From NCBI GenBank assembly GCA_029255605.1, contig JANLJF010000061.1, positions 1-53,222 of the forward strand: a DNA stretch of 53,222 nt. The letters are read 5' to 3'. Origin of the DNA: Azovibrio restrictus. GTDB lineage: Bacteria > Bacteroidota > Bacteroidia > Chitinophagales > Chitinophagaceae. A program made the translations under genes and the position numbers. Within the stretch, counting starts at the first letter, position 1. Every line of letters begins with the position of its first letter. The notes under the pieces were generated by a model that worked only from the letters and a program-made list of their open reading frames with translations, was not told the DNA's origin and did no database searches. Positions 25,327 through 51,870 of the stretch are shown piece by piece.

Positions 25327-25342
25327 TGGCATCTATGTTAGA
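25327..25342 (+). promoter_or_regulatory. TGGCAT element 46 bases before the start
   Basis: TGGCATCTATGTTAGA has the TGGYAY head found before several stress-island genes, at the same distance from the ATG (25373), but it lacks the T-run. It may be a sigma-54-like promoter. A TAGCTTTA box at 25345 is the alternative. Confidence 0.35.
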
Positions 25343-31521: not shown

Positions 31522-31538
31522 GCAGCATTACTATGCCA
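31522..31538 (-). promoter_or_regulatory. TGGCATAGTAATGCTGC element, sigma-54-like
   Basis: Read on the minus strand, TGGCATAGTAATGCTGC begins 47 bases before the VOC start. The head equals that of the stress-island elements. It has a GC pair one base closer to the GG than the sigma-54 consensus. Confidence 0.35.
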
Positions 31539-35258: not shown

Positions 35259-35275
35259 TGGCATTATTGTTGTTA
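35259..35275 (+). promoter_or_regulatory. TGGCATTATTGTTGTTA element, sigma-54-like
   Basis: It begins 42 bases before ATG 35301. TGGCAT followed after five bases by TTGTT is the closest match in the window to the sigma-54 pattern TGGCAC-N5-TTGCW. Confidence 0.45.
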
Positions 35276-42972: not shown

Positions 42973-43776
42973 TTATTCGCGCACCATAAGGTAACCTGCA
43001 TCTCCTGCAATCAGGAATATCGTATCCTTAGCCGGTTGGTACTTCTGATAGGTATCAATGGTTGCCGAATTTCCCGGATGTGATATAGTAGTGGTATTAG
43101 AGACGTAATATTGATTGGGTCTTTCCAATGATACAGTAAACACCCCGTTATTATTGCTCCTTTCCATTTCAAAGTCTAATGTCTTCATGGTATAGATATG
43201 TTCTTCTCCGGTGGGTTTATAGCTTTTAAATGCTGCTTTGTTGAATGAAAATGTAATGTATATTTTCTTCTGCCAATCGGTTAAAGCATTCCATACTCTT
43301 TTTGGTTCGGCATACATGCTGATGGAATAGGCGTCTACAGCTTTCCAGGTAGTTGGGTTATTGTTGTCTAATAAAGTGCCCCTGATATTGCATTCGGCAG
43401 CTCTTTTGGTAGGGCCAAGCTCCGGGATGATATAAGCACTATTCTTACTAGGGGTAAAGTGCATCTCATTGTTTAACCACTGTTCGCCAGCTATCCAGTT
43501 GCTATATGTTTGGTCATCAGAGTACCAGTCAATTTGGTATCTGTAACCTTCTTCCAGTGTGCTCTCGGGAATGGTTGTGGTTTTACCGGCCTCCACGCTG
43601 CCTTGCCATAGCGGATTTATCTGGTTTATATAATCTTCTTCGGAGCTATAGATGGTAGCCTGTACCCGTTTTGATGAAAGATTTTTGATGTCATAACCCA
43701 CCACTTTGGGTTCCTCTTTTTTGCAGGCATTCAGAAACAGGGCGACAATCAGGGTAAAAAGTACTAAGCGCTTCAT
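42973..43776 (-). CDS. Lipoprotein of unknown function
   Basis: The 267 residues start MKRLVLFTLIVALFLNACKK, a lipoprotein signal with Cys18. The mature protein is beta-rich and aromatic (YRYQIDWYSDDQTYSNWIAGEQW; AYSISMYAEPKRVWNALTDW). No domain is recognised. It forms a tail-to-tail pair with the PKD lipoprotein gene. Confidence 0.72.
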   Translation of the reverse strand: MKRLVLFTLIVALFLNACKKEEPKVVGYDIKNLSSKRVQATIYSSEEDYINQINPLWQGSVEAGKTTTIPESTLEEGYRYQIDWYSDDQTYSNWIAGEQWLNNEMHFTPSKNSAYIIPELGPTKRAAECNIRGTLLDNNNPTTWKAVDAYSISMYAEPKRVWNALTDWQKKIYITFSFNKAAFKSYKPTGEEHIYTMKTLDFEMERSNNNGVFTVSLERPNQYYVSNTTTISHPGNSATIDTYQKYQPAKDTIFLIAGDAGYLMVRE

Positions 43777-43839
43777 ATAGATTGGTTTGTGGTTAAATAT
43801 AATAAGCGGTTTTTAACTTAACAATGCTGCAATAAGCTC

Positions 43840-43855
43840 TGGCATAGTTTTTTAA
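43840..43855 (+). promoter_or_regulatory. Stress-island element A, TGGCATAGTTTTTTAA
   Basis: It begins 46 bases before ATG 43886. TGGCAT is followed by a T-run. It resembles the -24 half of a sigma-54 promoter with a T/A-rich -12 half. Related elements: 45953, 46418, 46976, 50807 (minus) and 50847. Confidence 0.55.
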
Positions 43856-43885
43856 AAATAAAGGTGATACTAAAACCAACGAGCT

Positions 43886-44350
43886 ATGTCACAAGTAGAA
43901 ACAACAGCCGAAGTGCTGAACGACCTGGTAAAGATTAATAACGACCGGATAGAAGGGTATAACCGTGCCATTAACGAGCTGCACGACCTTGATATTGACC
44001 TGAAAGCGGAATTCCGCCATTTTATAGAAGACAGCGAAAAGTATAAGCAAGAGCTGTCGTCCCTCATTTCATCATTGGGTGGAGATGTGGCTACGGGTAC
44101 TACCATGAGTGGTAAGATATACCGCGCCTGGATGGATGTGAAAGCCACCTTTACAGGGGGCGACCGTAAAGCGGTAATAGCCGCCTGCGAGTTTGGCGAG
44201 GATGCCGCACAGAAAGCTTATAAAACAGCACTGGAAATGAGCGGCGAGCTGACACCCGAAGCTGTGAACCTGGTAAATGAACAACAGCAGGCACTGAAAA
44301 AAGCGCATGATATGGTGAAGGCACAGCGCGATTCGCATAAATCACTTTAA
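43886..44350 (+). CDS. PA2169/DUF2383-family four-helix protein
   Basis: The 154 residues match the family: NDLVKINNDRIEGYNRAINEL, DLKAEFRHFIEDSEKYKQELSSLI, GKIYRAWMDVKATFTGGDRKAVIAACEFGEDAAQKAYK. The fold is ferritin-like, with conserved Glu and His positions that may bind metal. Such genes are typical of stress-response neighbourhoods. It is followed after 32 bases by a DUF4142 lipoprotein gene, so the two ferritin-like proteins (cytosolic and envelope) are probably co-expressed from element A. Confidence 0.9.
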   Translation: MSQVETTAEVLNDLVKINNDRIEGYNRAINELHDLDIDLKAEFRHFIEDSEKYKQELSSLISSLGGDVATGTTMSGKIYRAWMDVKATFTGGDRKAVIAACEFGEDAAQKAYKTALEMSGELTPEAVNLVNEQQQALKKAHDMVKAQRDSHKSL

Positions 44351-44382
44351 CGGATATTTAATAACCACTAAACTACCAACAA

Positions 44383-44964
44383 ATGAAGAAAACAATCAAA
44401 GCAATAGCAGGCGCCGGTGTATTGATGGCTGCACTGTTTACAACATCGTGCAGTGAGGGAACGCAAGACCATATGGAGAATGAAGCCGACACGGCCATGG
44501 CTAAAGTAGAGAACAAAGTAGATGAAGCAAGGGCAGATATAGATGAGTATCGCGATGAGAATTTTGTGCAGGATGTAGCTGAAATGAACAGCGAAGAACT
44601 GCACCTTTTAGCCTTGGGCCAGCAGAAAGGCACCCATAAAGAAGTGAAAGCTGCCGCAAAGAAAATGGAAGCGTATCACAACAGCATGGGTAAAGAACTG
44701 CAGGCACTGGCTACTGCCAAAAGCTATAAGCTGGATGCAGATGATGATGAGAACAAAGATGCACTGGCCAACGATAATGCAGGCACAGACTGGGATAAGC
44801 GCTGGGCCGATAAAGTGGTAGATGCGCACGAGAAAGCCATTAAAAAATTTGAGCGCGGGCAAGAGAAAGCAACTGACCCGGAACTGAAGGCATGGATAGA
44901 TAAGGAACTGCCTGCACTGCGCGAGCATTATAATGCTGCAAAGGAATTACAGTCTAAACTGTAG
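44383..44964 (+). CDS. DUF4142 ferritin-like lipoprotein
   Basis: The 193 residues have a lipoprotein signal with lipobox FTTSC (Cys23), an acidic helix-rich linker (about 30-60), then a DUF4142 domain. That domain contains FVQDVAEMNSEELHLLALGQQKGTHKEVKAAAKKMEAYHNSMGKELQ and ends DPELKAWIDKELPALREHYNAAKEL. DUF4142 is a four-helix, ferritin-like fold often found in envelope stress loci. It is the second gene of the operon with DUF2383 and ends at a strong terminator. Confidence 0.9.
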   Translation: MKKTIKAIAGAGVLMAALFTTSCSEGTQDHMENEADTAMAKVENKVDEARADIDEYRDENFVQDVAEMNSEELHLLALGQQKGTHKEVKAAAKKMEAYHNSMGKELQALATAKSYKLDADDDENKDALANDNAGTDWDKRWADKVVDAHEKAIKKFERGQEKATDPELKAWIDKELPALREHYNAAKELQSKL

Positions 44965-45007
44965 AAAGCAGGTCTCGAAGGGGATTGACCATGCCCCTTT
45001 TGATGAT

Positions 45008-45045
45008 GAAGAGCCGGGAAGTTTAGTACCGGCTCTTCTTTTTTA
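45008..45045 (+). terminator. Hairpin GAAGAGCCGG/CCGGCTCTTC with T-run
   Basis: Ten-base perfect arms at 45008-45017 and 45029-45038 are followed by TTTTTTA. A smaller AGGGG/CCCCT hairpin precedes it. Confidence 0.85.
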
Positions 45046-45078
45046 TGTAGGTATGTCATTTATAAAAATCATGATATT

Positions 45079-45924
45079 ATGGATAAGAAACTGAAACAGC
45101 AAAACGACAAAAGCAAAGCCAAGTATGAAAAGCTGCTGCAGGAAGCACCCATACGCGATGGCTATGTGGGTAGCGGCAAGCTACAGGATAAGGCGGCCAT
45201 CATTACTGGGGGCGATAGTGGCATAGGCAGGGCGGTAGCCGTGCACTTTGCGCGGGAAGGTGCCGATGTGGCCATCGTGTACCTGGAAAGCGATGAGGAT
45301 GCGAAAGAAACGCAGGGCCTGGTGGAAGCAGAAGGCCGCAAATGCCTGTTGATGAAAGGTGATGTAAGCAGCGAAGCCTTTTGCAAAAAAGTGGTAAAAG
45401 ATACCCAAAGCAAGCTGGGTGCATTGCACATATTGGTAAACAATGCAGGCACACATGAGGATGATGAAGAAATAAGCGGTATTTCAAAAAAACAATTACT
45501 ACGAACTTTTGATGTAAATGTGTTCTCGATGTTTTACATCACACAGGCGGCTGTGGAAATAATGGCACATGGTGGGTGTGTCATCAACACCACATCTGTA
45601 ACGGCATATAGGGGAAGTGAGCACCTGCTGGATTATTCGGCATCGAAAGGGGCTATGGTATCGTTTACCCGGTCGCTGGGTAAAAACCTTGCTGCTAAAG
45701 GCATACGCGTGAATGCCATAGCGCCGGGCCCTATATGGACACCACTGGTAGTTGCATCATTTGATGCGGAACACCTGGCCAAGTTTGGCAAGGATACGCC
45801 TATGGGGCGTGCCGGCCTGCCGCGCGAAGTAGCGCCTGCCTATGTGTACCTGGCATGCGATGACAGCAGCTATATGACAGGGCAGGTGCTGCACATAAAC
45901 GGCGGCGATGTAGTAGGTGGATGA
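45079..45924 (+). CDS. SDR-family oxidoreductase (YghA-like)
   Basis: The 281 residues have an N-terminal extension (about 1-36) and a Rossmann domain with TGGDSGIG at 43-50, NNAG at 121-124, Ser173, and the catalytic YxxxK at Tyr186/Lys190 (DYSASK). The extension and the motif order fit the YghA/GsiB-linked SDRs often induced by general stress. It should reduce or oxidise a small carbonyl or alcohol with NAD(P)H; the substrate is unknown. It sits inside the stress island between two terminators. Confidence 0.93.
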   Translation: MDKKLKQQNDKSKAKYEKLLQEAPIRDGYVGSGKLQDKAAIITGGDSGIGRAVAVHFAREGADVAIVYLESDEDAKETQGLVEAEGRKCLLMKGDVSSEAFCKKVVKDTQSKLGALHILVNNAGTHEDDEEISGISKKQLLRTFDVNVFSMFYITQAAVEIMAHGGCVINTTSVTAYRGSEHLLDYSASKGAMVSFTRSLGKNLAAKGIRVNAIAPGPIWTPLVVASFDAEHLAKFGKDTPMGRAGLPREVAPAYVYLACDDSSYMTGQVLHINGGDVVGG

Positions 45925-45952
45925 CAAATTTATTGTGATAATGCCCGGGGGT

Positions 45953-45970
45953 TGGCACGGTGTTTTTTTA
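45953..45970 (+). promoter_or_regulatory. Stress-island element B, TGGCACGGTGTTTTTTTA
   Basis: It begins 47 bases before ATG 46000. The head TTGGCACG is a full match to the sigma-54 -24 consensus; the -12 place is T-rich without GC. Confidence 0.55.
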
Positions 45971-45999
45971 CTAGTTAGCAGAACAAAAACTTATTCGTT

Positions 46000-46152
46000 A
46001 TGAGAAGCATACTATATATCATCGCTGTAATCCTGATAATAGGATGGATACTGGGTATAACTGCATACAGCGCAGGCGGACTGATTCATATCTTACTGGT
46101 ATTGGCCATTGTATCATTGCTACTGGGCCTTATACGGAGAGGTAATGTATAG
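46000..46152 (+). CDS. DUF5670 (lmo0937-type) mini membrane protein
   Basis: The 50 residues read MRSILYIIAVILIIGWILG, then a short polar turn (TAYSAGG), then LIHILLVLAIVSLLLGLI and a basic end (RRGNV). This matches the lmo0937/DUF5670 family of two-helix membrane proteins, which are common beside stress genes in Bacteroidota and Firmicutes. The function is unknown. Element B lies 47 bases upstream and a hairpin terminator 77 bases downstream. Confidence 0.88.
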   Translation: MRSILYIIAVILIIGWILGITAYSAGGLIHILLVLAIVSLLLGLIRRGNV

Positions 46153-46228
46153 CTCCGAAAATATGGATTACTAACAAGCCTCTTTTTTATTCCTCTTATA
46201 TATATTCCTCTCTTTATTCTACAAATTG

Positions 46229-46260
46229 GCTACGCTTTCGGGCGTAGCTTTCTTCTTTTA
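46229..46260 (+). terminator. Hairpin GCTACGC/GCGTAGC with T-rich tail
   Basis: Seven-base arms at 46229-46235 and 46242-46248 are followed by TTTCTTCTTTTA. Confidence 0.8.
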
Positions 46261-46417
46261 TATGTATGCCTGCCACTGCAACAAAATGGGGCAAATATCT
46301 TTCTCTTCCACATTTTAAGAGCATCTTTCCCCACTTGCAGCGCATCGTTTTCGGGGTGAAAAAATAGGGGTGGCGCTTATGTGCTCAGCAATAGGCAGTT
46401 GTGCTGAAACGCTTTGC

Positions 46418-46434
46418 TGGCATGCTTTTTCATA
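46418..46434 (+). promoter_or_regulatory. Stress-island element C, TGGCATGCTTTTTCATA
   Basis: It begins 44 bases before ATG 46462 and has the same TGGCAY head plus T-run as elements A, B and D. Confidence 0.5.
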
Positions 46435-46461
46435 CTATGTTGGTACTAAAAACTTAATGTT

Positions 46462-46752
46462 ATGGCAAACGAAAGAAATCAAAATCAGAACCAGGATCGC
46501 AATCAACAAAATGAAAGTAACCGCGACCTGAACCAGAATCAACAACGTACTGCAGGCCGCAATGAAGACCAACGCACTACGAACGAACCCATGGAAACAC
46601 AAAGCGGCGGCGGTGCCCGTGGTTATGAAACAGAACGTGAGCAAAACGAAGTAAACCGCGAAAGAGAAGACCTGAACTCGCCAACTACACCTCAGCGTGA
46701 AAATGACCGTGGCATGTCTTCTCCGGGCCGTCAAAGCGATGAACAACGCTAA
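46462..46752 (+). CDS. Asn/Gln-rich disordered protein
   Basis: The 96 residues contain almost no hydrophobic residues and are dominated by Asn, Gln, Arg and Glu (NERNQNQNQDRNQQNESNRD; EREQNEVNREREDLNSP). The protein must be intrinsically disordered and very soluble, like hydrophilins or some general-stress proteins. It lies between DUF5670 and DUF3606 genes and has its own TGGCAT element. A desiccation- or osmotic-protection role is inference from composition and context. Confidence 0.8.
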   Translation: MANERNQNQNQDRNQQNESNRDLNQNQQRTAGRNEDQRTTNEPMETQSGGGARGYETEREQNEVNREREDLNSPTTPQRENDRGMSSPGRQSDEQR

Positions 46753-46842
46753 TTGAAGTAGCCCCTTTCCCTTTTAGGTTTAAACTTCATAAAATACTAT
46801 TTGTGGTGGCACACAAGGTGCATCGTGAATAGTATTTTTTTT

Positions 46843-46860
46843 ATACCGGTGTTTTCACGA
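46843..46860 (+). repeat. ATACCGGTGTTTT-CACG repeat, copy 1
   Basis: ATACCGGTGTTTTCACGA here recurs as ATACCGGTGTTTTTCACG at 48905-48922. Both copies follow a gene end and a T-run and precede a further gene. The function is unknown. Confidence 0.4.
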
Positions 46861-46940
46861 GTATTTTATATGTATAAAGCACTTTACTTTTACAGGCCCT
46901 GACGCTCTATCATTTTTTCATGTATTAGTTTATAGGTTAG

Positions 46941-46973
46941 CAGCAGGCTGAATAAGCCTGCTGTGTTTTTTTG
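46941..46973 (+). terminator. Hairpin CAGCAGGCT/AGCCTGCTG with T-run
   Basis: Nine-base perfect arms at 46941-46949 and 46955-46963 are followed by TGTTTTTTTG. It lies directly before element D. Confidence 0.85.
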
Positions 46974-46975
46974 TG

Positions 46976-46991
46976 TGGTATAGTTTTTATC
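46976..46991 (+). promoter_or_regulatory. Stress-island element D, TGGTATAGTTTTTATC
   Basis: It begins 43 bases before ATG 47019 and differs from element A by one base in the first twelve. Confidence 0.55.
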
Positions 46992-47018
46992 TCTTCTACA
47001 GAAATAAAACTTACTACA

Positions 47019-47207
47019 ATGGCAGACGATAAAAATTTGAAAGGACAGCAGGACAGGCAACGCGTAGCCGGTGATGAGCCATATGAAGTGAACTACCTGG
47101 CGCAGAAACACCACGTATCGGCGGAAGTAGTGAAACAAGCAATAGAAGCTGTGGGCAATGACCGCGATGCCATCGAAGCTTATCTTTCTAAAAACGGTAA
47201 GGCGTAA
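47019..47207 (+). CDS. DUF3606-family small protein
   Basis: The start at ATG 47019 gives 62 residues: MADDKNLKGQQDRQRVAGDE, then YEVNYLAQKHHVSAEVVKQAIEAVGNDRDAIEAYL. This is the DUF3606 pattern (GQDR-RV, then YEV and a helix pair). These small proteins are common in stress-gene clusters of soil bacteria; the function is unknown. Element D lies 43 bases upstream. Confidence 0.9.
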   Translation: MADDKNLKGQQDRQRVAGDEPYEVNYLAQKHHVSAEVVKQAIEAVGNDRDAIEAYLSKNGKA

Positions 47208-47290
47208 CTACGCTCAGTATTGTATTTTTTACTGTATCACGCGACCCTGCAATGGCGGGGCTTTGGTGTATGGGATAGATTTTCAGTTTA

Positions 47291-47317
47291 AATAAAAAGC
47301 CCTGCAGAAGCAAGGCT
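47291..47317 (-). terminator. Hairpin AGCCCTGC/GCAAGGCT, minus strand
   Basis: Arms at 47298-47305 and 47310-47317 with one mismatch; on the minus strand TTTTTATTT follows. It ends the gene at 47352-47906. Confidence 0.7.
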
Positions 47318-47351
47318 TAGAGGATTACATATAAGGGATGGAAACAGAGAC

Positions 47352-47906
47352 TTATTGCTGTGTAGCTGTATAGACTACATCTACCGTATAGGTGCCGGCG
47401 GGATAAGTGAAGCCCGGGGCAGCCTTGTATTTCACAGAAAAGGTTTGGTTACCGCCGTTGGTGCCATTGCTTATCAATGTCCAGGCGCTGGTGGTAAAGC
47501 TCAGGTAATAGTCATCGCTGAAAGGCCATGCAATAGTACCGCCAGTGTTATTGGTGTTGACCATAAGGCCCAGCGTGCCCCATACGGGCATTGTAGGTGC
47601 AGGTGTGGTGCTACCTGTATAGGTAAAAGTTGAAGTATTGGTCTTAACAGATACGCTAAAGCGTTTGTTGGAACGTACACGGATATCCTGTGCGGCAGAT
47701 GTGACACCATTTGCGTAATCGTTCACGGTACTGAAGTCCAGGTTTACGGCATTGCCGGTAGCGCTGTTGCTGTTCAGAAAAGTCATTTCTATAGCATTGT
47801 TCAGGTTCAGGTTAGTAGTTTGGGTGGCGGTACTGCTAGTGTTTTGCGCAGTGGCAGCTAATGTGCTACCCAGGATGGCTACTGTGATGGTGAGTAATTT
47901 TTTCAT
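47352..47906 (-). CDS. Secreted Ser/Thr/Asn-rich beta protein (WxL/DUF4402-like)
   Basis: The 184 residues have a signal peptide (ending LAATAQ). The single mature domain is rich in Thr, Ser and Asn: AIEMTFLNSNSATGNAVNLDF, then IRVRSNKRFSVSVKTNTSTF, ending FTYPAGTYTVDVVYTATQQ. The closing strand resembles WxL-like or DUF4402 domains found in surface and pilus-associated proteins. The match is by pattern only. It has a long A-rich leader (repeated CAAAC/AACAAA) and a three-copy GTTAAG array upstream, suggesting specific activation. Confidence 0.72.
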   Translation of the reverse strand: MKKLLTITVAILGSTLAATAQNTSSTATQTTNLNLNNAIEMTFLNSNSATGNAVNLDFSTVNDYANGVTSAAQDIRVRSNKRFSVSVKTNTSTFTYTGSTTPAPTMPVWGTLGLMVNTNNTGGTIAWPFSDDYYLSFTTSAWTLISNGTNGGNQTFSVKYKAAPGFTYPAGTYTVDVVYTATQQ

Positions 47907-47949
47907 TTTTGCTTTGTTTGTTTTGTTTGCGTTTGTTCGTTTGATAGTG

Positions 47950-47981
47950 CAAAGATGCTGTGCTGTTTTATGCAGGGCAAT
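47950..47981 (-). promoter_or_regulatory. Promoter ATTG-N20-CATCTTTG
   Basis: On the minus strand ATTG (47981-47978) and CATCTTTG (47957-47950) are 20 bases apart, close to the Bacteroidota consensus, leaving a leader of about 40 bases before ATG 47906. Confidence 0.5.
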
Positions 47982-47993
47982 TATTTACGCTTT

Positions 47994-48032
47994 CTTAACA
48001 GGGCGTTTATAACTGCTTAACAAGCACTTAAC
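47994..48032 (-). promoter_or_regulatory. Three GTTAAG direct repeats, LytTR-like
   Basis: On the minus strand GTTAAG occurs at 48032-48027, 48021-48016 and 47999-47994, spaced 11 and 22 bases, so all on one helix face. The nearest copy is 12 bases upstream of the -33 box. LytTR-type activators use such repeats. The factor is not identified. Confidence 0.5.
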
Positions 48033-48494
48033 GACTGTGGGATGAATATGTTATTGTTAACGATATACATACCTTGGGTTATGAACTTTAATTTGTCTAT
48101 CTTTACTAAAGTATAAGTGGCTATATTTTAAACAATTCGAAAACAGGGGAACTAAGACGCTTTTATCACTTCCGCACTTTAAGACTTGATAGAACGGCAG
48201 GAAGCCAAAAGGGGCGAAAATTGCTGCCGATGTAAAACCTCGCTTTTGCATTATTTAATGCCATCAACGCCCTGATACAGGGATAATGTTACACAGCAAT
48301 TTTGGTTGCGTATTGAATAGGCCTTCAGGGCATGTGCAACAAAACAAACAACAACAAAACAAACCCGTTAAGATTTTAATAATGATGGCATGTATGCTTC
48401 TATGTTATTAGCAATAATAGCAAAACAGCTTACCACGAGAGGTGCTACCAAATGAATGTGGTGTAAGAACCTTTTTCGTAAAAGCTAAAAACCA

Positions 48495-48890
48495 ATGAAA
48501 ATGAGAAAGCAAGTGCTATTAGTGGATGATGACAGGGAAGACCGCGATATTTTTTTAATGGCGCTGCGCGAAGCGGGCGATCTGTTTGATTGCCTTACCT
48601 GCAACAATGGTATAGAATGTCTGAAACTGCTGGAAAGCGGTTTGCAGCCCCATGCCATATTGACCGATATAAACATGCCGATGATGAATGGCTTTGAGCT
48701 GGTAGCCAGCCTTAAAAACAGGCCAGACTACAGGCAGATACCCGTATTTGTTCTGAGCACATCGTCCAATCCTGATACAGTTAAACAATTTCACCAGTTG
48801 GGGGCAGAGCAGTTTGTAACCAAGCCTACCAGCTTTCGTGCATTGGTCAATTTTATCCAAACGGCCTTTCAGATGCAGATGGCCACCTGA
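48495..48890 (+). CDS. Single-domain response regulator
   Basis: The 131 residues form one receiver domain: acidic pocket DDD at 11-13, phospho-acceptor Asp58 in LTDINMPMMNG, the Ser/Thr switch in LSTSS (88-91), and Lys110 in VTKP. There is no output domain, so it works by protein contact, in the manner of Rcp1/CheY-like regulators often paired with phytochrome-type or hybrid kinases. No kinase is adjacent. The GAF kinase at 16982 and the orphan H-box proteins are possible partners, but this is speculation. A start at the Met at 48501 is equally good. Confidence 0.93.
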   Translation: MKMRKQVLLVDDDREDRDIFLMALREAGDLFDCLTCNNGIECLKLLESGLQPHAILTDINMPMMNGFELVASLKNRPDYRQIPVFVLSTSSNPDTVKQFHQLGAEQFVTKPTSFRALVNFIQTAFQMQMAT

Positions 48891-48904
48891 TATTTTTTTT
48901 GGAA

Positions 48905-48922
48905 ATACCGGTGTTTTTCACG
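48905..48922 (+). repeat. ATACCGGTGTTTT-CACG repeat, copy 2
   Basis: ATACCGGTGTTTTTCACG matches copy 1 at 46843 with one extra T. It lies between the response regulator and the outer-membrane protein gene. Confidence 0.4.
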
Positions 48923-48976
48923 GTGTATAATTCATTGTTCAGCAGTATTTTGTGAGCTTACATAAATAGGATAACT

Positions 48977-49864
48977 ATGAAAAAGCTCATTACACTTACG
49001 GCAGCTATTGCCATGATGGCTACTACGGCCGATGCTCAGCAACTGATACCCCTTTCCAGCAGGCTGGTATCAAAAAAAATAATAGACAGAGGAAGGCAGC
49101 AGTATCAAAAGATCTTTAAAGCAGATGAGGGGCGTACAGATGACCCAGATGTGCAGCTAACCGGTATGGGCGGGCTTTCCAATCTTGAAAATATATCTGC
49201 AGCAGGTGGTAACCTGTCTGTAGGTGTGATATTCAAAACATCGCCCCGTACCAATACCTACCTGATGTTTAACACCCGCACGGGTAGCACTGCAGATACT
49301 GCTTCGCTGGTAAAAACATTCCTGTTCCCCGATATTGCCCGCCGCGATTTTACAATAGGTTTTGAATATGTCAGCAAAATAGGCAATGACTTTTTCTTTA
49401 TCCCATTTGCTGAGTTTTCGCTCAACCGTTATAAAGTGGGCAATGATTCCATATCCAACAGCTTTCGCACTACCAGTGCCATTGCGGGCTTTAAGCTGGG
49501 CAAATCTTACAAGGTGAAGGTGGGCGATGATATTAAAGCATTCGGTTTCAGTATCAATCCTTACTACAATATCATCAGTACCGATCCTAAATTTTTCGGC
49601 AACTACAATAATATGTTAGGTGAAACCAACCTGCCGCCTACCTTCCATACAATAGGTGTGAATGCGGTATTGGATATAACACATGTATCGCTGTTTGCCA
49701 ACATGAAACAGGTGCTGAATAATACGGATAATATAACCAATGGAGAACTGAAAGGTTTTAATTATGTGATAGGCACGCTTATCAGCACCGATATACTAAA
49801 GTTTAAACTGCATAAGGAAGGTGCAGGTGGCGGCGGTAATGCCTCAGAAGATGATGATGAATAG
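48977..49864 (+). CDS. Outer-membrane protein with acidic C-terminal tail
   Basis: The 295 residues have a signal peptide (ATTADAQ at about 15-21), a helical N-terminal part, then long amphipathic strands (NLSVGVIFKTSPRTNTYLMF, RDFTIGFEYVSKIGNDFFFI, FGFSINPYYNII, TIGVNAVLDITHVSLFANM). It ends in a Gly-rich linker and a short acidic tail (GGGGNASEDDDE). It is likely an outer-membrane or surface beta protein. No family is recognised. It shares a bidirectional terminator with the convergent ferritin-like gene. Confidence 0.7.
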   Translation: MKKLITLTAAIAMMATTADAQQLIPLSSRLVSKKIIDRGRQQYQKIFKADEGRTDDPDVQLTGMGGLSNLENISAAGGNLSVGVIFKTSPRTNTYLMFNTRTGSTADTASLVKTFLFPDIARRDFTIGFEYVSKIGNDFFFIPFAEFSLNRYKVGNDSISNSFRTTSAIAGFKLGKSYKVKVGDDIKAFGFSINPYYNIISTDPKFFGNYNNMLGETNLPPTFHTIGVNAVLDITHVSLFANMKQVLNNTDNITNGELKGFNYVIGTLISTDILKFKLHKEGAGGGGNASEDDDE

Positions 49865-49920
49865 TGTGCAGTATTAGAGGGCCTCATCTTTTGTATCACC
49901 GGATGTTACGAATAAAATAA

Positions 49921-49946
49921 AAAGCCGCAGTTCTCGCTGCGGCTTT
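49921..49946. terminator. Bidirectional hairpin AAAGCCGCAG/CTGCGGCTTT
   Basis: Ten-base perfect arms at 49921-49930 and 49937-49946 around TTCTCG lie between two convergent gene ends, with A and T tracts on both sides. Confidence 0.88.
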
Positions 49947-49969
49947 GCGTATATAGAAGTGATAGTGTA

Positions 49970-50740
49970 CTACATATCGTCATCTTCCTCTTCGTCTTCA
50001 TCATCGCTGTCTTCGTCGTCTTCCATATCTTCATCATCTTCCTCTTCCTCTTCGTCTTCCTCATCTTCATCCTCTTCTGCCGCTTGTATATTGATGTCGT
50101 TCTCGGCTATTGCGGTCAGGTTTTCATCGGTATCTTTTTCTTCCTGCAGGGTCATGCCCAGCAGTTCCTTAGCATCTTCCAGGCCCAGTGTGGCGGCCAG
50201 TTGCGCAAGGCCGCCATAGGTGGCTATTTCGTAGTGTTCTACCTTTTGTGCCGCCATTATCAGCGCTACATCGCGGGTGGCCGTACCTTTTTCCGTTTCT
50301 TCTATAATGCTTTGTGCCTCTTTGGTAAGGCCTTCCATCGCATCACATTTCTTGGCTTTAGCAGGTTCGCCCATTATTTCAAATACCTGTTCCAGGCGCT
50401 GTATTTGTTCTTCTGTTTGTGCCAGGTGTTCTTCAAAGGCGGTTTTCAGTTCTTCAGATGTTGCAGCCCTTTGCATTTTAGGCAGTGCTTTGGTCAGGTG
50501 TTTTTCGGCCCAGTAAATATCCTTCAGGCTATCTATAAAAAACTCCCGCAGCATGCTTTGGTCATCCATAGATTGCATGCGCGATGCGCTTTTTTTAGGT
50601 GCGGCTTTTTTGGCAGCCGCTTTTTTAGGTGCAGCTTTCTTAGGCATGGCGCGCTTGGTAGCGGTGGCAGCTTTTCTCGGAGCTGATTTCTTAGCAGGTG
50701 TCTTGCTTTTTTTAGCAGCAGCTTTTTTTGCGGTTTTCAT
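49970..50740 (-). CDS. YciE/DUF892 ferritin-like protein with basic and acidic tails
   Basis: The 256 residues form three parts. Residues 1-52 are a histone-H1-like Lys/Ala/Pro tail (KKAAAKKSKTPAKKSAPRKA and more). Residues about 60-210 are a DUF892 ferritin-like bundle (LREFFIDSLKDIYWAEKHLTKALPKM; FEEHLAQTEEQIQRLEQVFE; VEHYEIATYGGL; LQEEKDTDENL) with the expected Glu/His metal positions. Residues 213-256 are almost all Asp/Glu. DUF892 proteins are stress-induced. The basic tail suggests DNA binding as in tailed Dps proteins; the acidic tail could fold back on it. It has an upstream TGGCATA element. Confidence 0.93.
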   Translation of the reverse strand: MKTAKKAAAKKSKTPAKKSAPRKAATATKRAMPKKAAPKKAAAKKAAPKKSASRMQSMDDQSMLREFFIDSLKDIYWAEKHLTKALPKMQRAATSEELKTAFEEHLAQTEEQIQRLEQVFEIMGEPAKAKKCDAMEGLTKEAQSIIEETEKGTATRDVALIMAAQKVEHYEIATYGGLAQLAATLGLEDAKELLGMTLQEEKDTDENLTAIAENDINIQAAEEDEDEEDEEEEEDDEDMEDDEDSDDEDEEEDDDM

Positions 50741-50790
50741 AAAGCGTATCGTTTAATTTTTTTTTGTGTAAATGGAGATATGGAACACGT

Positions 50791-50807
50791 GTTAAAAACT
50801 TATGCCA
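50791..50807 (-). promoter_or_regulatory. Stress-island element E, TGGCATAAGTTTTTAAC
   Basis: It is read on the minus strand and begins 67 bases before the ferritin-like start. The head and T-run equal elements A and D. Confidence 0.5.
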
Positions 50808-50846
50808 CAGCATATCATTTTTTTATTACCGCAGGATAAAAACGGC

Positions 50847-50864
50847 TGGCACGACTTTTTACTA
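50847..50864 (+). promoter_or_regulatory. Stress-island element F, TGGCACGACTTTTTACTA
   Basis: It begins 54 bases before ATG 50901. CTGGCACG matches the sigma-54 -24 consensus fully. It faces away from element E across 40 bases. Confidence 0.5.
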
Positions 50865-50900
50865 CCTACTGTGCAGACGACCGATAAATACAGGTAATTT

Positions 50901-51713
50901 ATGAAACCGCATACAGATAACATGGCTTTGAGATGGTGGGTACTGGTGATAGCTATCGTAAACCCCGTCTTTGCTTATATAGCCAATGCTACCGGTATTA
51001 CGCCCCGCAGCATTGCCGATGTATCTATGAAATATGATACCTACTTCATGCCCGCAGGCTATGCCTTTTCCATCTGGGGGCTTATCTACCTGTCTTTCCT
51101 GGTATATGCCATTTACCAATTGCTGCCTGCACAGCGCCGCCGTACGGTGTACGACAGGCTGGCTGTACCATTTATAGTTACCAACCTGCTGGGTATGGCC
51201 TGGCAAATTGCTTTTACAAATGAACTGCTGACACTTGGCACCGTCATCATAGCGGCTATGCTGGTGTGTTCCATCATATTGTATGCTACCGTGCGCACCT
51301 GCATTATGCAGGAAATATGCATGTACTGGCTATCAGTGCCATTTAGCCTGTATATGGGCTGGCTATCGGTGGCCAATATAGCCAATGCGGCCACATGGCT
51401 CACCTGGATGGGGTGGAATGGTGGCAGCCTAACCCCCCTGCAGTGGGCAGTGGTGATGGTATTTTCAGCCGGGGGGCTGGGGCTTGTCATCAGCCTGTAT
51501 TTTAAAGATTGGGTATATCCGCTGGTGATAGCATGGGCCTGTTTTGCCATCAGTGTAAGCGCACAATTTACCAGCCGTGTGCTGGCGACTGATTCGGTAA
51601 TAGTAGCATTGCTATCCATGCTGTGTTCGGCAGCGGTGGGCGTATGGCAATACCTGCATTATAAGGCACATCATATGATTAACACACACAAACCGGGGCA
51701 ACATGCTCATTAA
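50901..51713 (+). CDS. TspO-like tryptophan-rich membrane protein
   Basis: The 270 residues have about seven hydrophobic segments. The sequence MPAGYAFSIWGLIYLSFLVYAIYQ fits the motif of TspO/MBR-related tryptophan-rich sensory proteins, though this member is longer than classical five-helix TspO. A second Trp-rich region reads WLTWMGWNGGSLTPLQWAVV. TspO proteins bind porphyrins and are linked to stress and light responses. The first ATG is used; 50922 is an alternative. A 32-residue membrane protein gene follows after 15 bases. Confidence 0.75.
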   Translation: MKPHTDNMALRWWVLVIAIVNPVFAYIANATGITPRSIADVSMKYDTYFMPAGYAFSIWGLIYLSFLVYAIYQLLPAQRRRTVYDRLAVPFIVTNLLGMAWQIAFTNELLTLGTVIIAAMLVCSIILYATVRTCIMQEICMYWLSVPFSLYMGWLSVANIANAATWLTWMGWNGGSLTPLQWAVVMVFSAGGLGLVISLYFKDWVYPLVIAWACFAISVSAQFTSRVLATDSVIVALLSMLCSAAVGVWQYLHYKAHHMINTHKPGQHAH

Positions 51714-51854: not shown

Positions 51855-51870
51855 TGGTAAATGTGTTATA
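51855..51870 (+). promoter_or_regulatory. TGGTAAATGTGTTATA element
   Basis: It begins 42 bases before ATG 51897. It is a weaker relative of the TGGYA elements. TATATTTA just downstream is an alternative -7 box. Confidence 0.3.

Follow-up and report, generated by a model that had tools for sequence, protein, structure and literature searches.

Which factor reads the short sequence that recurs upstream of stress-type genes in a 53,222-nucleotide stretch (the window) of Azovibrio restrictus DNA, assigned by GTDB to the Chitinophagaceae (GenBank assembly GCA_029255605.1, contig JANLJF010000061.1)? The original prediction, made from the letters alone, had described six copies of a TGGYAY head followed by a run of T, and offered either a sigma-54 promoter with a variant -12 element or the use of another sigma factor or regulator. 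Our analysis indicates that the sequence is almost certainly a true promoter element belonging to a general-stress regulon, and sequence comparison makes it quite likely to be of the sigma-54 type. The product of a second rpoN gene, RpoN2, acting with its activator, is a somewhat favored candidate for the main reader in this genome. Between the two original alternatives, the variant -12 element is preferred and another regulator is less so, because the TT of the sigma-54 register is kept, no clear second box is seen, the helix-turn-helix (HTH) of RpoN2 is altered and rpoN2 is linked to stress genes in relatives.

All six elements lie at the claimed positions and strands, facing stress genes within an island that we define as bases 43501–51000. 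On the plus strand, TGGCATAGTTTTTTA (43840–43854) lies 46 bases 5′ of the ATG of a DUF2383 gene encoding a PA2169-type four-helix bundle (43886–44350), which is followed by a DUF4142 gene (44383–44964) and a short-chain dehydrogenase (SDR) gene (45079–45924). Further along the same strand, TGGCACGGTGTTTTTTT (45953–45969) precedes the ATG of a DUF5670 gene of 50 amino acids (46000–46152) by 47 bases, TGGCATGCTTTTTCA (46418–46432) precedes that of a gene for a small, Q/N/R-rich and probably disordered protein (46462–46752) by 44, and TGGTATAGTTTTTAT (46976–46990) precedes that of a DUF3606 gene (47019–47207) by 43, so the spacing of 43–47 bases claimed for four elements is what we measure. The remaining copies are TGGCATAAGTTTTTA (50793–50807, minus strand), 67 bases 5′ of the ATG of a DUF892 (ferritin-like) gene (49970–50740, minus), and TGGCACGACTTTTTA (50847–50861, plus), 54 bases 5′ of that of a membrane-protein gene that the original prediction labeled TspO-like (50901–51713, plus). 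Pfam supports the DUF and SDR assignments, and it also identifies a response regulator among the window proteins. The membrane protein has no match in Pfam or NCBIfam at E 0.01, and scans of both collections gave none for the Q/N/R-rich protein.

The island is strongly enriched for the element. The pattern TGGYAYN2-4TTTTT occurs six times in it, whereas 400 second-order Markov simulations averaged 0.31 copies and never gave more than 3; in the whole window it occurs seven times, against 2.0 expected (100 simulations). For comparison we used a genome sample of 60 stretches (~1.15 Mb of a 3.27-Mb genome, 1.20 Mb including the window; 1104 genes called), which is not random, having been taken mostly from contigs already known to carry matches. 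The element lies 35–70 bases before 5 of 9 called gene starts in the island (a set of starts that lacks the 50-residue DUF5670 gene), 0 of 40 elsewhere in the window and 9 of 703 in the remainder of the sample; the Fisher p of 1e-7 for the island is inflated because the island was picked for its elements. The positional enrichment that the original prediction proposed to look for is present and strand specific: among strict matches within 250 bases upstream of genes in the sample, 15 of 21 fall at 30–59 bases, whereas the opposite strand has 1 of 12 there. A relaxed form, GGYAYN2-4TTTT, stands at 34–62 bases from 33 of 808 starts (reversed motif, 2; opposite strand, 9), and canonical sigma-54 boxes occupy the same interval at 15 starts versus 7 on the opposite strand. 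The internal spacing is also constrained; of 135 TGGYAY heads upstream of genes, 19, 22 and 14 have a TTTT that starts at offsets 8, 9 and 10 from the first T of the head, with 0–6 at each other offset. De novo motif discovery, likewise proposed, did not recover the element: expectation maximization on 698 upstream regions returned a TAnnTTTG-like box of the primary sigma factor.

To describe the element we drew 28 sites from 52 rows, removing coding rows, distances outside 34–70, duplicates and six rows by eye; the head and four T of these sites were fixed by the search pattern. The result is a 15-bp box, TGGYAY-RR-TTTTT-WW, that is, T-G-G-C/T-A-C/T, mostly A-G, five T, and then A or T twice. 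Position 12 is T in 28 of 28 sites and position 13 in 25 of 28, both partly set by the pattern, and at the two positions that the pattern leaves free there is neither a G at 14 (0/28) nor a C at 15 (0/28). From position 16 onward there is little conservation until an A-rich stretch 10–15 bases 5′ of the ATG, and the 28 sites reveal no clear second box downstream of the element.

This anatomy follows the sigma-54 register. The GG, a CAC-like triplet, a purine and the TT of TTGC are all kept, and GC alone is lost, which bears out the earlier view of a sigma-54-like -24 half lacking the -12 GC. The likeness can extend over a long run: the copy at 50847 with its five upstream bases, ACGGCTGGCACGACTTTTTAC, and a nifH sigma-54 promoter oligonucleotide, ACGGCTGGCACGACTTTTGCC, found in an excerpt of PMC5505868, have 18 identical bases, ACGGCTGGCACGACTTTT, after which our copy reads TA instead of GC. 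GC follows 0 of 45 TGGYAY heads in rpoN2-centered regions drawn from 20 genomes of the family, 1 of 52 at named rpoN2 loci, 0 of 34 in single-rpoN regions and 3 of 62 in our genome sample. Because the GC at -12 was tested and found absent, the element is not a canonical sigma-54 promoter and is best named a sigma-54-like promoter with a variant -12 element. The same genome also holds a groES gene (L116 near 14092, minus strand) with a -24/-12 box, TGGCATAAAACATGC / TGGCATAAAACATGCTG, whose GC is in register 79 bases before the ATG, and therefore boxes with and without GC appear to coexist here. Upstream of a clpB-like gene (L097 near 4455, minus) is a T-run element, TGGAACGTTTTTTATG, with A at position 4.

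If the element is of the sigma-54 type, what sigma factor could account for its unusual -12 half? A search for rpoN and enhancer-binding proteins, suggested alongside the original prediction, found two rpoN genes and three strong sigma-54 activators in the A. restrictus genome. RpoN2, encoded on contig C70, scores above cut-off for PF00309, PF04963 and PF04552 and reaches 362.9 bits for TIGR02395 (cut-off 277.35), and its translation contains the RpoN box ARRTVAKYREQL. Directly 3′ of rpoN2 lies a gene for an NtrC-type protein with a receiver, an AAA+ sigma-54-activator domain bearing the GAFTGA motif and a Fis-HTH; our copy is cut near the C terminus by the end of stretch L002. A CHASE3 histidine kinase is encoded on the other side of rpoN2, both here and in a congener (G459) that has two further kinases after the activator, and Pfam confirms the kinase domains at both loci. 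In 16 of 19 rpoN2 loci the activator gene is the direct neighbor of rpoN2 (our own stretch stops short of it), and in 18 a gene of the kinase cluster is no more than three genes away.

The second rpoN is also linked to stress genes. In a survey of 117 genomes of the family, 34 have two or more rpoN genes and 26 of these also have DUF2383; the second rpoN lies ~3–21 kb from DUF2383 in 17 of the 26, and in none of 35 single-rpoN genomes with DUF2383 does rpoN come within 25 kb of it, the distances having been taken by eye from two tables in which broken assemblies can hide links. The gene order in the congener is DUF2383, DUF4142, small protein, SDR, kinase, rpoN2, activator and two kinases. Our C70 locus (L080 12077–19125) keeps that order without DUF2383, DUF4142 and SDR, the trio that sits in the window at 43886–45924 behind the element at 43840. 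Since the trio adjoins rpoN2 in the congener and lies in the window, not at the C70 locus, in our genome, it appears from these gene orders to have moved in one lineage or the other, with the element present at both places.

In its own right, rpoN2 is often preceded by a conserved box like TTTGGCTTCAAGGTTGCCTTA, which lies mostly 43–50 bases before the start where scored and has sigma-54 spacing, TTG and a variable base at the expected C (L002, upstream of 571; L235, L238, L241, L366–L372, L375, L376, L378 and L398). It is missing at Niastella and Dyadobacter loci. The box suggests that rpoN2 may regulate itself.

The RpoN2 protein differs from other RpoN proteins in the part of the molecule that would contact the -12 region. 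In a midpoint-rooted tree of 100 RpoN sequences, the RpoN2 clade comprises 42 (support 0.98), with Pseudochryseolinea as the next branch; Niastella, Sediminibacterium, Flavipsychrobacter and Longitalea are among its members, and Dyadobacter RpoN2-like proteins fall outside the clade, yet have much of its HTH pattern in common. By residue numbers counted on the RpoN alignment, both paralogues retain R383 and K388. Position 385 is T in 40 of 42 RpoN2 and A in 44 of 58 others, position 387 is N in 42 of 42 and S in 45 of 58, and position 402 is L in 41 of 42 and F in 52 of 58. Thus, between R383 and K388, the A-N-S of RpoN1 (44, 48 and 45 of 58) becomes T, then S or C, then N in RpoN2 (40, 38 and 42 of 42), and further downstream L-K-Y/F-F-F becomes L-K-D-L-F (D in 33 and L in 41 of 42). 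In excerpted text of PMC5505868, cross-links to promoter DNA form from photo-crosslinkable residues introduced at E378 and at R383, and the HTH is placed near -14.

How widely is the element distributed, and does it follow rpoN2? The relaxed form stands 34–62 bases before 37 of 294 starts in the rpoN2-centered regions of the 20 family genomes (reversed, 1; opposite strand, 4) and before 43 of 531 at named rpoN2 loci (reversed, 2; opposite strand, 7), two sets with at least three contigs in common. At DUF2383 promoters, genomes with two or more rpoN have it at 15 of 25 genes and single-rpoN genomes at 6 of 27 (Fisher p 0.010; reverse strand, 0 of 52), in a comparison that ignores phylogeny and for which the TGG of the head was loosened to GG once the data had been inspected. 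The 52 genes were parsed from 61 loci, the DUF2383 listing having 83 places. We set aside whole-genome counts against the reversed motif, a control used in our phylum (198 genomes), canonical-box (60 genomes) and family surveys. That control is weak because the motif is in excess also in genomes where its copies are mostly coding: in G481, 14 of 20 copies sit in open frames at least 200 codons long and 3 of 20 are promoter placed. Those counts were 35 versus 9 for our genome in the canonical-box survey and, in the family, 493 versus 262 in 34 genomes with two or more rpoN and 1046 versus 730 in 83 with one, the excess being greater in the former group (p 0.03).

The genes behind the element give it a common theme. 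Outside the window it precedes genes for Ku, PNPOx-like, DJ-1/PfpI and alpha/beta hydrolase proteins, two GSDH, an AI-2E transporter, a trehalase-like protein, a response regulator and CsbD, and in the window and elsewhere it also fronts DUF2383 and DUF892 genes, so that many unlinked stress genes have one promoter element in common. Genes of the Ku, CsbD, DJ-1/PfpI, PNPOx-like and GSDH types are the usual content of general-stress regulons. Because the element fronts these genes together with those for DUF2383 and DUF892, we assign it to one general-stress regulon, and the single regulon put forward in the original prediction gains support from this content. Other genera carry the element at like genes, identified by sequence as DUF2383, DUF5670, DUF892, PNPOx-like, LigD-like and receiver proteins. 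Among 19 DUF2383 promoters bearing it, rows chosen by the relaxed form of the motif, the box is conserved and the flanks poorly so. Of 30 CsbD loci surveyed across the class, 11 were left unparsed; among the other 19, which come from five families, 6 have a TGGYAY head upstream, none of them with GC in register.

Taken together, these observations lead us to propose that a general-stress regulon has this element as its core promoter, which is of the sigma-54 (-24/-12) type with A/T in place of the -12 GC. RNA polymerase carrying RpoN2, in which the HTH that reads the -12 half is unlike its counterpart in the housekeeping RpoN1, would most likely read it; the NtrC-type response-regulator ATPase encoded right after rpoN2 would switch the promoter on, and the neighboring sensor kinases would control that ATPase. 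RpoN2 binding, the drive by the adjacent activator and kinases, and the response of the element to stress are what we infer from motif, protein and gene order.

Several observations weigh against this proposal, in addition to the two limits on the DUF2383 comparison. The GC at -13/-12, a defining feature of sigma-54 promoters, is absent. A shared enhancer is not apparent either: a dyad scan of the 28 upstream regions found none, its best uncorrected p being 0.002 among 53190 dyads. Enhancer sites may be distant, degenerate or few. Twenty single-rpoN regions around DUF2383 carry the element at 19 of 285 starts (reversed, 0; opposite strand, 5), and several rpoN2 loci, including those of Niastella, show it at few genes and not at DUF2383. 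Promoter-placed copies number 9 of 30 in four other rpoN2 genomes versus 6 of 40 in three single-rpoN genomes, a difference that is not significant (p 0.15); this test covered 20 of 22 of our own matches, 30 of 66 in the four rpoN2 genomes, 20 of 21 in G481, 12 of 13 in G465 and 8 of 15 in G397, with a crude coding filter that dropped some likely promoters (L283, L286). As to orientation, bare TGGYAY occurs at 35–62 bases from 62 of 808 starts in our sample and in the wrong orientation at 32, and TTTT on the opposite strand also peaks at offsets 8–10 (8, 10 and 10 of 107 heads), which divergent genes may partly explain.

Could the housekeeping RpoN1, or both paralogues, read the element, with the loss of the -12 GC tolerated, activators giving specificity and RpoN2 linked and non-essential? 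Because single-rpoN genomes carry the GC-less form at 19 of 285 starts and 6 of 27 DUF2383 promoters, before like genes, this form extends past RpoN2 genomes, and RpoN2 as its sole reader is rejected; RpoN1 may also read it, as judged from these promoters. The -12 sequence after single-rpoN TGGYAY heads is often TTGA, TTGT, TTTA or TTTC, and the TTG followed by A or T stands between the canonical and T-run forms. The GC-less heads at CsbD genes (6 of 19 regions sampled from five families) and the R383 and K388 common to both paralogues fit this explanation as well. Set against it, the T-run form at DUF2383 is commoner where there are two or more rpoN, stress genes are linked to rpoN2 and not to a single rpoN, and both our groES box and the Flavobacterium psychrophilum sigma-54 motif, in the part of PMC9723704 available, have the typical -24/-12 form. 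On this balance we regard this explanation, with RpoN1 or both paralogues as reader, as fairly unlikely.

A reader outside the sigma-54 family, such as a sigma-70-family factor (for example, an extracytoplasmic function [ECF] factor with an extended -10-like box) or an activator binding an oriented site beside a hidden promoter, would explain the missing GC and the lack of an enhancer motif in the dyad scan, and some copies read TA-n-n-TTT, like the -7 box of the primary sigma. A primary-sigma -7 box is disfavored by C at position 6 in 11 of 28 sites, which leaves no TA, and by G at position 13 in 0 of 28. TGGYAY and TT stand at sigma-54 spacing, and little is conserved downstream before the A-rich stretch. 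Were the element a -35 box, copies 36–40 bases from the start would leave leaders of a few bases, shorter than the A-rich stretch at -10 to -15. Nor is there a sigma-70-type factor among the 30 most shared protein clusters of rpoN2 regions, judged by eye from N termini, with Pfam applied to the G459 cassette and the trio. A reader of this kind is accordingly rather improbable. Chance, or a compositional artifact of T-rich intergenic DNA, is very hard to credit: the motif does exceed its reversed control even where most copies are coding (in G481, 3 of 20 are promoter placed), yet its position peak is strand specific, the island has 6 copies against 0.31 expected, and the same genes carry it again in other genera.

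The proposed RpoN2-dependent regulon differs from known general-stress systems in its sigma factor. The regulons of sigma-B, sigma-S and EcfG include CsbD, Ku, DJ-1/PfpI, PNPOx-like, DUF892 and GSDH genes, and in content they overlap with the set described here; those factors belong to the sigma-70 family, whereas here a sigma-54-type promoter and a linked factor are found. Bacteroidota are not known to have sigma-B, sigma-S or EcfG. The -12 GC is treated as near-invariant for sigma-54. Canonical promoters such as that of nifH resemble the element in the TGGYAY head, the purine that follows, the T-rich spacer and the TT in the -12 register, and differ in that their GC at -13/-12 is A/T in the element. 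According to an excerpt of PMC3162934, sigma-54 paralogues of Rhodobacter sphaeroides and Bradyrhizobium japonicum use promoters differing at -11 or -12; these species likewise have more than one sigma-54 copy and promoters that differ in the -12 region, but the difference described there is one base, whereas here both GC bases are lost, at general-stress genes. The sigma-54 regulon of F. psychrophilum (SM4 promoters), as presented in part of PMC9723704, comprises protein-quality and envelope-stress genes, with three sigma-54 activators and a typical -24/-12 motif that covers groES/groEL, lon and dnaK. It is alike in placing Bacteroidota sigma-54 promoters at stress genes and differs in the typical form of its motif, and CsbD, DUF2383 and Ku are unnamed in that part of its table.

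Among the matches listed for the open PubMed Central literature, neither a sigma-54 general-stress system or GC-less promoter form in Bacteroidota nor joint control of CsbD, Ku, DJ-1 and ferritin-like genes in this phylum is described. The promoter element, the candidate sigma factor with the activator beside it and the set of target genes are now all named and open to test. If the proposal is true, a natural class of promoters does without the -12 GC, a point that matters for understanding DNA reading by the sigma-54 HTH, and a general stress response can be built on sigma-54 in place of a sigma-70-family factor. More tentatively, we suggest that the general stress response of Chitinophagaceae, and of Dyadobacter-type Cytophagales that have a related rpoN2, might depend on a dedicated RpoN2, a kinase–activator cassette of its own and a class of promoters with A/T at -12, the two sigma-54 factors splitting the genome by their reading of that position; the evidence leaves this generalization short of an even chance.

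The window holds further, less regular sequences of interest. The four weaker relatives of the element described originally are all present 42–47 bases before starts: TGGCATCTATGTTAG (25327–25341, plus; 46 bases 5′ of 25373), TGGCATAGTAATGCT (31524–31538, minus; 47 bases 5′ of 31491 on the minus strand), TGGCATTATTGTTGT (35259–35273, plus; 42 bases 5′ of 35301) and TGGTAAATGTGTTAT (51855–51869, plus; 42 bases 5′ of 51897). The last of these proved to have the head TGGTAA and is not TGGYAY. TT at positions 12–13 is kept in three of the four, and GC in register occurs in none. A repeat, ATACCGGTGTTTT(T)CACG, is found at two intergenic sites of the window (46843–46859 and 48905–48922), and the similar CCGGTGTTTTCAC lies 5′ of a T-run site in stretch L091. 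Finally, a terminator-like hairpin followed by T's (AGCAGGCTGAATAAGCCTGCTGTGTTTTTTT, 46935–46972, identified by eye) stops just 5′ of the element at 46976.

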